Source: an uncultured Verrucomicrobiota bacterium (lineage in GTDB: Bacteria > Verrucomicrobiota > Verrucomicrobiia > Opitutales > Opitutaceae). From it: a stretch of DNA of 52,664 nt. Under the pieces are notes generated by a model, which had not been told where the DNA came from, made no database searches, and worked only from the letters and a program-made list of their open reading frames with translations. The stretch's first letter is position 1. Every line of letters begins with the position of its first letter. Made by a program: the position numbers and the translations under genes. Location: assembly GCA_903876795.1 (NCBI GenBank), contig CAIRBK010000089.1, forward strand, positions 1 to 52,664, in the 5' to 3' direction. Below, in pieces: positions 35,597 to 38,819 of this stretch.

Positions 35597-35977
35597 TTAT
35601 GCTTCCTTAGCTTTGGTGACGCCAACGGTGCGACGGGGGCCCTTGCGGGTGCGGGCGTTGGTGCTGGTGCGCTGACCGCGAACGGGGAGGCTCTTGCGGT
35701 GACGAACGCCGCGGTAGCAATTAATCGCCTGGAGGCGCTTCAGGTTGCCGGTGAGCTCGCGGCGGAGATCACCCTCAACCACCCACTTGTTTTCAGTGAT
35801 GATGTTGAGGATTTTGTTGAGCTGCTCTTCGGTGAGCGCTTCAGCACGGGAATCCGGATCGATACCGGCTTCTTTAACGATATGGTCGGCGCGAACCGGA
35901 CCAATTCCGTAGATGTAACGGAGGGAATACGCGACTTTCTTCTTCGCGGGAATATCTACACCGAGGAGACGTGGCAT
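35597..35977 (-). CDS. rpsM: 30S ribosomal protein S13
   Basis: 126 residues beginning [19 protein letters not shown]. It carries the helix-two-turn-helix region ([20 protein letters not shown]) and the basic tail ([20 protein letters not shown]) that contact 16S rRNA and tRNA. It heads the alpha group after map. The usual rpmJ and infA genes between map and rpsM are absent. A small hairpin GCCGGT/ACCGGC (36026-36041) lies in the gap. Confidence 0.97.
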
Positions 35978-36066: not shown

Positions 36067-36837
36067 TTAGGTGGCCTTCGGGATCGTGAGGATCTCGGGC
36101 CCGTTTTCAGTGGTGAGCACGGTGTGTTCGAAGTGCGCGGAAGGCGCGTTGTCGGCGGCGACAATCGTCCAGCCGTCGCTGAGGGTCTTGGTGCGGTAGG
36201 TGCCAAGATTAACCATCGGTTCGATCGCCAAGGTCATACCGGCCTTGATCTTATCTCCGGAGTTGCGACGCCCGAAGTTGGGTATCTGAGGTTCCTCGTG
36301 CATCGAAACACCGACCCCATGCCCTACCAAGTCGCGAACGACGCCAAAGCCGTGGGATTCGACATAGGTTTGGATAGCGTGCGAAATGTCTCCGATTCGA
36401 TTCCCGACAACGGCTTGTTTGATGCCAAGGTAGAGCGCTTCTTCGGAAACCTTCAACAATTCGGCAACCCGAGGAGACACCGAGCCAAGCGGCACCGTGG
36501 TGGCGTTGTCGCCGATGTAGCCTTTATACTCGATGACGACATCAAGAGAAACGACGTCGCCCTCTCGAAGAATGCGCTTCAGAGAACCGATCCCGTGAAC
36601 CACCTCTTCGTTGACCGAAAGGCAGGTATAGGCCGGGAACCGACGATTACCGATTTGGTATCCGTAACAAGCGCTCCGGGCTCCGTGCTGGGCGATAAAA
36701 TCGCGTGCAGCCTGATCCAAGTCATACGTCGTTAAACCCGGGCGAACGAGCTCTTTGAGCTGCTGCAGCACGAGGGCGGCGATCGCACAAGACTCACGCA
36801 TCCGCGTGACCCCTTCTTTGTTTTTGATCGGGATCAT
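36067..36837 (-). CDS. map: methionine aminopeptidase type I
   Basis: 256 residues. It removes the initiator Met. The five metal ligands can be placed in SLDVVIEYKGYIGDNATT (Asp pair), GHGVGVSMHEEPQIPNF (His, Glu) and MTLAIEPMVNLG (Glu). Its ATG overlaps the stop of the Adk-like gene by four bases (ATGA), so the two are coupled. The position after secY and adk is typical. Confidence 0.97.
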   Translation of the reverse strand: MIPIKNKEGVTRMRESCAIAALVLQQLKELVRPGLTTYDLDQAARDFIAQHGARSACYGYQIGNRRFPAYTCLSVNEEVVHGIGSLKRILREGDVVSLDVVIEYKGYIGDNATTVPLGSVSPRVAELLKVSEEALYLGIKQAVVGNRIGDISHAIQTYVESHGFGVVRDLVGHGVGVSMHEEPQIPNFGRRNSGDKIKAGMTLAIEPMVNLGTYRTKTLSDGWTIVAADNAPSAHFEHTVLTTENGPEILTIPKAT

Positions 36838-37298
36838 ACGACGGAGAGTTCAACGTCCTCTATCAGAAGACCGTAAGTGCGATAGTGGTCGACGACCGAC
36901 TCGTTGGAACCGGGGGCAGCGAAGACGCCGTGGAGATTTTCATCACGGGCCTCAATCCATTCGTCGAATACCTTGGCTTGGAGCAACGTAGCCGGGAAGC
37001 CACTCAGGGCGAATCCCGCATCAGGTTTGCGTGCCCAAAACCAGCGTCGCACAAGGGCGAGCAAGGTTTCATCCGCCAAGAGTGATTCTTGGCGGATCGC
37101 CCCTTCAACCGTTTGGCCGAGGGGCAAGCCACGCGAAATCTCCAACCGCATCAGTTCAGTCGGAGAGACGTGCTCAATATTCAAAGAACGAAGCCGATTC
37201 ATCACGTTTTGCGAGGAAAACGGAGGCAAACCGAGCAGTAAGAACTTCTGTTTGGCGGGAGCGCCGAAAGAAGAAAAGAGGTCGAACAGTGCAGACAC
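36834..37298 (-). CDS. adenylate-kinase-like protein lacking the P-loop
   Basis: 154 residues in the place of adk, between secY and map. The order of Adk segments is kept: an initial strand KFLLLGLPPFSSQ (18-30) where Adk has a GxxGxGK P-loop; IEHVSPTELMRLEISRGLPLG (41-61) resembling the AMP-binding region; LADETLLALVRRWF; and SGFPATLLQAKVFDE (99-113) where Adk has DGFPRT. The P-loop Lys is lost and the Arg of FPRT is Ala. The LID and C-terminal parts are missing (Adk has about 215 residues). It is coupled to map by ATGA. I infer a catalytically dead homologue, perhaps regulatory; a true adk should lie elsewhere. Confidence 0.8.
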   Translation of the reverse strand: MSALFDLFSSFGAPAKQKFLLLGLPPFSSQNVMNRLRSLNIEHVSPTELMRLEISRGLPLGQTVEGAIRQESLLADETLLALVRRWFWARKPDAGFALSGFPATLLQAKVFDEWIEARDENLHGVFAAPGSNESVVDHYRTYGLLIEDVELSVV

Positions 37299-37316
37299 TA
37301 CAGCCGAAGTAAAGCC

Positions 37317-38819
37317 TTATTTAATCAAAATACGATATCCCCAGATACCCACGCCGATCAGGAGCAGGCCCAACATGGGGAGAGCGATCTTCATAACCGC
37401 CTCGGTGCTGAGAGCATCGCCGGCCGCACTTGGCGCATTTCCACTGCGGGCGCGGACGCGGCCCTTCTTCAGGAAACCGTCGTAGTGACGCTGCAAGAGG
37501 AAGGTCTCAATCTGTTTCATCGTGTCCAGAATGACACCGACTGTGATCAACATGCCTGTGCCGCCAAAGAACACGGCAATGCGCTGGGGGACGTTGAGCT
37601 CGAAGAGGAACACGTCGGGCATGACGGCGATGATCGTAAGAAAAATCGCGCCGGCCAGCGTCATACGGGTCATGATGAAATCGAGGAACTTGGCGGTGGG
37701 TTCACCGGGGCGGACACCCGGAATGTAACCGCCGTATTTCTTGAGGTCGTCGGCGATCTGAATCGGCTTAAACATCACGGACACCCAAAAGTAACTGAAG
37801 AAAAGGATGAGCGTCGCCATGGAGGCGTAATAAACCCAGTGACCGCGCAGGAGATTTTCTGCAAACTCGGTGAGGAACTTTAGGTCGAACGCGGCGCCGA
37901 CCTGCGAGAAAATCTGCTGCGGGAAGAGGAGGATCGCGCTGGCAAAGATCACCGGCATCACACCAGAATAGTTAACCTTAAGTGGCAGGAATGAACTCTG
38001 TCCGCCCATGACCTTGTTGCCCACGACGCGTTTGGCGTATTGGACGGGAATTTTACGCTGCCCCTGCACCACAAGAATGATGCTCATCGTAACGAGGACG
38101 AAGAGTAGAATCATCACCACGGCTTGCGGCAGTCCGAGTCCCTTGACGCCAATGGCGGGGAAGAAAAGTTGGTATGCCGTGGCGGCGGCTCCAGGAATGT
38201 CAGCTAGAATGCCGATGGATATCAGGAGCGAGACACCGTTGCCGATGCCGCGCTGGGTGATCTGCTCGCCCAGCCACATGAGAAGCAGCGTTCCGGCGGT
38301 CATGAAGATAACCGAGGTTATCAGGAACCATGCCTTCGGCGCTATCACGATCGAACCGTAGAGATTTACGTCAAAGCTAGGACCAAAGAGACGCGCCGGA
38401 TTTTCAAGTGCGAGGATGAGAAGCGTACCCTGGATCAAGCAGATGACCAACGTGGCGTAACGAGTGTATTGGGTAAGCTTTTGGCGTCCGACATCGCCTT
38501 CTTGCTGCAAGCGGCTAAGGGCGGGCACCACGGCGGTCATCAACTGAAAGATGATAGACGCGCTAATGTAGGGCATGATGCCCAGTGCGAACACGGCGCC
38601 CTTAACGAGGGCGCCTCCGGTGAACATGTTGTAGAGGCCCACGAGGGCGCCGCCCGTGCTGCCGGCCTGTTCTTTGAAAAAGGCGGCCAATGGCTCGGGA
38701 TTAAGGCCCGGAAGCGGAATGTGCGCACCAACGCGCGCGACAAAGAGAAGGGCCAAGGTGTAGAAGATGCGGGAGCGCAGCTCGGGAATCTTCAGGGAAT
38801 TCGTGAATGCGGAAAGCAC
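37317..38819 (-). CDS. secY: protein translocase subunit SecY with an extra C-terminal helix
   Basis: 500 residues against about 440 for E. coli. The channel core is standard: RIFYTLALLFVARVGAHIPLPG, the plug region, LGEQITQRGIGNGVSLLI, and the cytoplasmic loops with YAKRVVGNK and KKYGGYIPGVRPG. After the normal end (GFLKKGRVRARSG) come about 20 hydrophilic residues and a further hydrophobic helix (ALPMLGLLLIGVGIWGYRI). A terminator-like hairpin precedes the gene, so it may be under separate control. Confidence 0.96.
   Translation of the reverse strand: MLSAFTNSLKIPELRSRIFYTLALLFVARVGAHIPLPGLNPEPLAAFFKEQAGSTGGALVGLYNMFTGGALVKGAVFALGIMPYISASIIFQLMTAVVPALSRLQQEGDVGRQKLTQYTRYATLVICLIQGTLLILALENPARLFGPSFDVNLYGSIVIAPKAWFLITSVIFMTAGTLLLMWLGEQITQRGIGNGVSLLISIGILADIPGAAATAYQLFFPAIGVKGLGLPQAVVMILLFVLVTMSIILVVQGQRKIPVQYAKRVVGNKVMGGQSSFLPLKVNYSGVMPVIFASAILLFPQQIFSQVGAAFDLKFLTEFAENLLRGHWVYYASMATLILFFSYFWVSVMFKPIQIADDLKKYGGYIPGVRPGEPTAKFLDFIMTRMTLAGAIFLTIIAVMPDVFLFELNVPQRIAVFFGGTGMLITVGVILDTMKQIETFLLQRHYDGFLKKGRVRARSGNAPSAAGDALSTEAVMKIALPMLGLLLIGVGIWGYRILIK

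Follow-up and report, generated by a model that had tools for sequence, protein, structure and literature searches.

A decayed adenylate kinase gene at the secY-map junction of Opitutaceae and a candidate structured RNA within its coding sequence

In Opitutaceae, the gene between secY and map (here called X) is almost certainly a decayed adenylate kinase gene (adk), and we are nearly as confident that part of its coding sequence is under selection at the nucleotide level. The explanation we favour, and to which we give even chances, is that the mRNA of this decayed adk has gained a structured, cis-acting RNA element at the junction of the spc and alpha operons. The window analyzed is a stretch of 52,664 nucleotides from an uncultured Verrucomicrobiota bacterium.

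Results and Discussion

X is a conserved neighbour of secY and map

X and its neighbours are encoded on one strand in the order secY-X-map-rpsM-rpsK-rpsD-rpoA (Table 1). The gap between the secY stop and the X start is 18 bp, and the end of X is coupled to the start of map by an ATGA overlap, as the original prediction had noted. From their translations we take the genes following map to be rpsM, rpsK, rpsD, rpoA and rplQ. A CTTTAC box directly after the secY stop (37309-37314, minus strand) is more than 95% conserved over 100 aligned loci and is also present in L078, L079 and L284; no obvious Shine-Dalgarno sequence was seen near it among the examples inspected. With the start codon in each relative chosen by us as the one nearest to the start in the window, X begins with GTG at 36 of 47 loci.

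Table 1. Positions of X, its neighbours and the elements of the predicted RNA fold in the window.
Feature	Position	Strand	Remarks
secY	37317..38819	-	upstream neighbour of X
Pseudo-adk ORF X	36834..37298	-	154 aa, GTG start, secY-map slot
map	36067..36837	-	downstream neighbour, ATGA overlap with X
rpsM	35597..35977	-	followed by rpsK, rpsD, rpoA, rplQ (alpha-operon genes)
Conserved RNA domain	36954..37193 (240 nt)	-	covariance model R1, 228 positions; 217.7 bits, E 1e-67, the window being one of the 64 crown sequences from which R1 was built
P0 5' strand	37182..37189	-	GUUC-U-UUG; pairs with 36959-36966
P0 3' strand	36959..36966	-	CGACGAAU; one base bulged
P1 5' strand	37168..37175	-	GAGCACGU; EHV codons
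P1 3' strand	36981..36989	-	ACGUUGCUC; TLL codons; one base bulged
P2 hairpin	37139..37166	-	UCUCC...GGAGA
P3	37026..37138	-	UUUCGCG with CACGCAAA, consensus CGCGCAAA; encloses variable domain
Linker	37020..37025	-	CCYGAU, conserved; joins P3 to P4
P4 hairpin	36991..37019	-	GCGGG...CCCGGC; inner stem P4b varies in step

A search of relatives for the same short protein at this place had been advised, and we found it at 49 related loci (Opitutaceae, Opitutia, Verrucomicrobia; genera such as Lacunisphaera). It is preceded by secY and followed by map in 48 of 49 loci each, both gaps being contig ends. Among 100 further family loci X was flanked by secY and map in 99, and the remaining locus was cut by a contig end. 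An X profile matched 147 of 171 family genomes at E 1e-3, some of these matches being other Adk genes. Re-examination for map of 27 genomes with weak or no X showed that 10 lacked map too, and in these the operon is probably missing from the assembly. In 14 others (genera g9, g12, g19 and g39) map was present, with neither a secY within 1.5 kb nor an adjoining X, and the remaining three carried a decayed X (G052 and G066) or a divergent one (G012). In these four genera secY is directly followed by rpsM in 12 of 12 loci (L134-L145), and map is found elsewhere.

X is homologous to adenylate kinase and has lost its motifs

The homology of X to adenylate kinase exceeds chance. X matched the Pfam ADK family (PF00406) with E 1.9e-11 and 44.8 bits, above the curated cut-off of 26.8, and the adenylate kinases of the PDB with E 9.1e-9. 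Since the Pfam alignment begins at profile position 18, the P-loop lies outside the match. An AF2 model made from 48 sequences (pLDDT 78.6, pTM 0.70) predicts an Adk-like core fold, and Foldseek with this model returned adenylate kinases as top matches (E 3.5e-9, query TM 0.61). The profile, PDB and structure searches agree on an Adk homologue between secY and map, as had been proposed.

At the P-loop position X reads GLPPFSSQ and at the DGFPRT position SGFPAT, replacements that the original prediction had described correctly. The P-loop GxxxxGK[ST] occurs in none of the 131 unique X sequences of the family (exact duplicates dropped, the window's X included). As for DGFPR, which provides AMP and phosphate contacts in Adk, the site equivalent to D84 is without Asp in all 131 sequences and that of R88 holds Ala in 125 and Arg in 4. 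Aligned to Adk, the T31 equivalent is Pro in 107 of 131 and Thr in 3, and the R36 equivalent is Arg in the window's X and in 59 of 131. We take D84, R88, T31 and R36 to be AMP-site residues, their positions being assigned by alignment. An AMP-sensing role had been suggested for X; the conserved core of the AMP site is gone and a part remains in some members, and we have abandoned the AMP sensor as the leading idea.

The LID domain is absent from X, which is internally deleted relative to the sister-family Adk and to the gene of G025 (L072). The latter retains the LID cysteines, followed by VASHYHDRGMLVSMD, and the sister-family gene L062 has LADHYANLGLLSV at the post-LID stretch. VVDHYRTYGLLIED of X matches this stretch, and it therefore looks as if X had lost the LID by an internal deletion and, in addition, its last part. 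Thus the proposed loss of the LID holds, whereas a simple loss of the C-terminus does not.

Origin of X and a second Adk gene

Comparison of slots shows that X descends from a motif-complete adk that still occupies this place in the sister family f20. An adk was found in the slot at three of three f20 loci, and each of the five f20 genes examined encodes an Adk of full length that has GxPGAGKGT, DGFPRT and a LID with cysteines; the four family loci compared carry X. In the other families of the order, secY is directly followed by map with no adk between (23 of 23 loci), and in the phylum an Adk-like P-loop ORF comes after secY in 15 of 23 loci. In a SecY tree built from 90 sequences, f20 stands next to the family (support 76). 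The empty-slot genera are the first to branch off inside the family; they are followed by G034, by G012 together with G025, by genus g11 and lastly by the crown clade (support 100). The gene of G025 is an intermediate, being of full length with the LID cysteines kept and the P-loop and DGFPRT lost.

The original prediction also anticipated a separate full-length adk. A second PF00406 gene (E 1.9e-9) is indeed present in the genome (G000:C36:117651-118871; L002:721-1944, minus strand) and encodes a divergent Adk of 407 aa, here called AdkL, with intact GAPGSGKGT and DGFPRT motifs, in which the C-terminal 140 aa or so contain no Pfam domain; we infer its AMP kinase activity from these motifs and its distribution. 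Strong AdkL matches (E below 1e-30) occurred in 118 of 135 order genomes. All 17 genomes without one belong to f13 or f20, and the five f20 and four f13 genes that we read are canonical Adk. The absence of AdkL where a canonical Adk is present suggests, short of proof, that AdkL does the work of adenylate kinase in genomes whose spc copy has died. At three loci (L074, L076 and L077) two ADK domains are fused in tandem in a single ORF of about 400-460 aa, and the loop of the second domain reads GYPGSGRGS.

The X protein is under selection

Protein-level selection on X is real. The protein alignment comprised 47 of the 49 loci and the window (partial loci L007 and L050 were dropped), and the 39-genome codon set leaves out 9 of these 47, in which secY and map were not both complete and usable. 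With one value per gene on a fixed tree of these 39 genomes, omega was 0.057 for map, 0.040 for secY and 0.366 for X, the last being inflated because dS of X is low. An omega of 1.0 was rejected for X (2dlnL 393). By segment, omega was 0.59 in the N-terminal part, 0.33 in the middle, 0.106 in the core and 0.23 in the C-terminal part (31 codons, 2dlnL 199). The C-terminal segment lies outside the RNA described below, and its low omega therefore shows selection on the protein itself.

Together with the presence of X at 49 loci, an omega below 1 leads us to reject random decay, in accordance with the earlier view. X is present in relatives, its dN/dS is not near 1, and the genome holds a second adk, provided that AdkL is active. 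What stands of the original reading is thus a selected Adk homologue without catalytic motifs beside an intact Adk-type gene; the AMP sensor does not.

These data could also be explained if X were nothing but a protein, a pseudo-Adk that serves as a structural component or binds a partner (SecY, Map or the ribosome), in which case the frozen codons described below would arise incidentally from codon usage or translation speed. Beside the omega of the C-terminal segment and the Adk-like core of the AF2 model, this is favoured by the lack of internal stops in 131 of 131 unique sequences, by conserved DE, R, Y and GL residues that use synonymous codons freely (D127, E128, R133, Y190 and G194 in alignment columns, 131 unique sequences), and by the WFW.R motif of X, which is present already in motif-complete sister-family adk genes. 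The nucleotide data of the next sections speak against it, and we regard it as unlikely.

Codons in the core of X are frozen

When codons were counted in columns with at most 10% gaps in the 39 genomes, 15 of 49 conserved positions of X were codon-invariant, as compared to a single one each in map (of 143) and in secY (of 323), a difference that codon usage does not account for. Across the 131 unique sequences the codons TCT, TTG, GAG CAC GTC TCT and GAG ATT are nearly frozen, as are CGC AAA CCY GAT GCG GG and TTC CCG GCT ACG YTG CTC. Under the same column restriction and over 741 pairs, four-fold sites diverged least in the RNA core (0.288), more in the rest of X (0.400 and 0.453) and most in map (0.472) and secY (0.501). 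Many closely related pairs show a far lower dS in X than in its neighbours, for example 0.22 between L003 and L004 as compared to 0.81 in map and 1.16 in secY. This is not universal (L014 and L025: X 0.19, map 0.17, secY 0.39). The low dS has a local cause, the RNA core. Much of what looks like protein conservation in X (EHV, EI, KPDA, FPATLL) consists of frozen codons that pair with one another, a layer that the original prediction had missed.

Constrained synonymous sites could also be held by an overlapping gene in another frame or by a DNA-level element, and antisense frames stay open through the core in as many as 59 of 94 sequences. However, none of the alternative frames spans the core uninterrupted in every one of the 94 sequences examined, on which ground we rejected the overlapping gene, and the blocks are complementary in nested order, as they might conceivably be in a DNA element as well. 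We consider this kind of explanation highly improbable.

The frozen blocks form a predicted RNA fold

RNAalifold analysis of 94 non-redundant crown sequences showed that the frozen blocks pair with one another in one closed fold, P0-P4, and we hold this fold to be probable in outline. Seven loci (L280, L284, L288, L293 and L295-L297) were left out of the crown alignment and near-identical sequences were removed. The consensus helices are P0 GUUC.UUG/CGA.GAAU, P1 GAGCACGU/ACGYUGCUC, P2 UCUCC/GGAGA, P3 UUUCGCG/CGCGCAAA and P4 GCGGG/CCCGGC. Over 98 distinct sequences, 98.3% of the scored cells hold standard pairs, as compared to 35-48% in slid controls, and in P1 every scored cell does. In the window one of the seven P3 pairs is mismatched, and the variable domain contains an 11-bp hairpin. 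Frozen codons that are mutually complementary over five nested helices are not expected if only the protein matters.

This was further supported by folding energies. The RNA of the window folds with a z of -6.2 (0 of 200 shuffles as low), and under synonymous permutation X has a mean z of -2.16 in 64 genomes, 45% lying below -2, as compared to controls of -0.05 for map (38 windows, 19 genomes) and -0.38 for secY (76 windows, 19 genomes). Permutation of X codon columns with the same amino acid reached the observed energy in 0 of 100 cases. The covariation score of the fold was above that of 500 of 500 shuffles, and the P4b stem scored 10.14 against 8.67 (sd 0.17), which none of 2000 swaps reached in a test that ignores kinship.

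The exact fold is less well supported than the nucleotide-level selection, as compensatory changes are few. Both sides have changed in 1 of 32 pairs, which 213 of 500 shuffles reach, and slid structures give up to 3; this evidence is thin because the main helices hardly vary. Variable-region hairpins reached p<0.05 in 18% of 92 sequences, the region being misplaced in some by the search pattern, and this weak signal was therefore not counted as proof of covariation. The RNAalifold z is unspecific, as the first 264-nt windows gave -4.1 for map and -4.5 for secY (15 shuffles); single-sequence synonymous permutation did not reproduce those two signals. In the core alignment the antisense strand folds slightly better (-86.3 vs -84.9) whereas a wider alignment favours sense, and the strand assignment therefore rests on the direction of the operon.

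Pairs of P0 and P4b occur also in basal or sister genes, and P0 may predate the rest of the fold. Sister-family genes have 8-17 of the 25 P1-P4 pairs, and the 11 basal or sister genes overall 5-17. In basal and sister genes the synonymous-permutation z was between -0.98 and 0.9, except in G025 (-4.38), which lacks the crown pairs; this gene (L295) is a full-length dead Adk without the crown helices.

Distribution of the predicted RNA

R1 matched 141 of 171 family genomes. Six matches are low-scoring basal genes (G010, G012, G025, G034, G047 and G065), and we therefore count 135 of 171 genomes as having the RNA, G052 and G066 included. Each matching family genome has one match, the sole second match being weak (G119, 22 bits). 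In 183 order genomes searched with strict filters, R1 found outside the family five f20 genes, through adk homology, and a marginal match in G231 (E 0.0084). The Rfam families, alpha-operon leaders included, matched the RNA domain at scores far below gathering, so a known RNA family was rejected as the source of the fold. No tRNA or tmRNA was found in the window, and no promoter or terminator was predicted on the gene strand between 36000 and 37500. With mimicry of ribosomal RNA in mind, a 16S search of three genomes, two of them single-contig, gave no match, with 9 of 14 controls detected. Our literature search found no paper on X or the RNA fold, and a passage search of PMC2864571 gave no hit for Opitut, Verrucomicrobi, adenylate kinase or secY.

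Possibly, the RNA is cut from the operon transcript and acts in trans or as a housekeeping RNA, the coding layer being a residue. P0 joins both ends, as in self-contained RNAs, no known family is matched, and the pairs survive loss of the protein in two genomes (below). Such an RNA is nevertheless hard to reconcile with a single match per genome, with the near-absence of matches elsewhere in the order, with secY and map as flanks in 99 of 100 loci, and with the lack of predicted promoters or terminators around it. A stand-alone RNA therefore seems to us rather unlikely, if slightly less so than a purely protein role.

Two genomes retain the RNA pairs and not the protein

In G052 (L078) the X frame is broken between the blocks, and in G066 (L079) WFW, FDEWLEAR and HYR are lost although a frame remains open. 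The frozen blocks outlast the protein: GAGCACGTCTCT is exact in both and most other blocks persist; this, too, counts against a purely protein role. R1 scores were 110.7 bits for L078 and 68 bits for L079. The latter is about that of a genus-g11 gene without the fold (65.9 bits), which matches by gene homology, and only pair counts separate the two. L078 keeps 31 of 32 pairs (24 of 25 in P1-P4) and L079 25 of 25 in P1-P4, P0 being outside the match. Neither is better folded than its own shuffles (z -1.46 and -0.86). Their minimum-energy folds contain P1 and P2 and lack P3 as drawn, and P4 is absent in L078. In both, lineage-specific pairs extend P2, and L079 has a new long stem within its P3 domain.

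Since G052 and G066 are nested apart in the SecY tree and G052 has genomes with intact X as its closer relatives, the simplest reading is that the X protein was lost twice. A bolder view, which we hold only tentatively, is that, once catalysis had passed to AdkL, an enzyme gene began to turn into an RNA gene, with a new essential folded RNA and a protein now dispensable and already lost twice.

A proposed cis-acting element at the spc/alpha junction

Taken together, our results can be accommodated in the following scheme, in which redundancy through AdkL, a single transcription unit, the ligand and the direction of regulation are parts that we infer. The spc-operon adk of Opitutaceae would have been freed from catalysis because AdkL serves the cell. 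The P-loop, the catalytic and most AMP-binding residues would have been lost first and the LID afterwards, and in the crown of the family the coding sequence would have gained a folded RNA domain of about 240 nt, in which P0 closes a junction of P1, P2, P3 and P4 and the CCYGAU linker is conserved. In most crown genomes both products would be selected, the small pseudo-Adk protein and, more stringently, the RNA. The RNA would act in cis within the secY-X-map-rpsM-rpsK-rpsD-rpoA transcript. A ligand, at a guess one of the ribosomal proteins of the operon, may stabilise the fold and stall ribosomes on X, and this would lower expression of map and the downstream genes via the X/map overlap. The chances that the element is a cis-regulator are, in our estimate, evenly balanced.

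The location between secY and map-rpsM-rpsK-rpsD-rpoA and the strong fold in the window would also suit an mRNA processing or stability element between the spc and alpha halves, an RNase cleavage or protection site without a ligand. But the near-invariant unpaired CCYGAU and the frozen helix sequences suggest recognition of specific bases, beyond the needs of a barrier, and we find this less plausible than either the stand-alone RNA or the purely protein role. The cis-regulator remains the reading we prefer.

Structured mRNA elements are known as ribosomal-protein leaders, e.g. the S4 site of the E. coli alpha operon, which precedes rpsM-rpsK-rpsD-rpoA. The X RNA likewise stands ahead of these genes; unlike the S4 site it is contained in an ORF, at a distance of about 1 kb from rpsM, and has a closed multi-helix fold without an Rfam match. 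With Adenylate kinase (PF00406) X shares sequence and fold homology and the secY-adk-map slot, and it differs in lacking the P-loop, DGFPR and LID and in carrying an RNA fold in its coding sequence. Descent of an RNA from a protein gene is reported for Xist and Lnx3 (PMC2430539). There, as here, a protein gene contributes to a functional RNA; X differs in being bacterial, in a ribosomal-protein operon, and in encoding a protein still selected in most crown species.

Our results suggest that an enzyme can become first a pseudo-enzyme and then a structured RNA, step by step, within one of the most conserved bacterial operons, with G025, genus g11, G052 and G066 as living intermediates. They also call for caution, since residues that are invariant in a protein alignment can be so because of RNA. 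In the Opitutaceae, the RNA may represent a new class of regulator acting on the expression of ribosomal proteins and rpoA.
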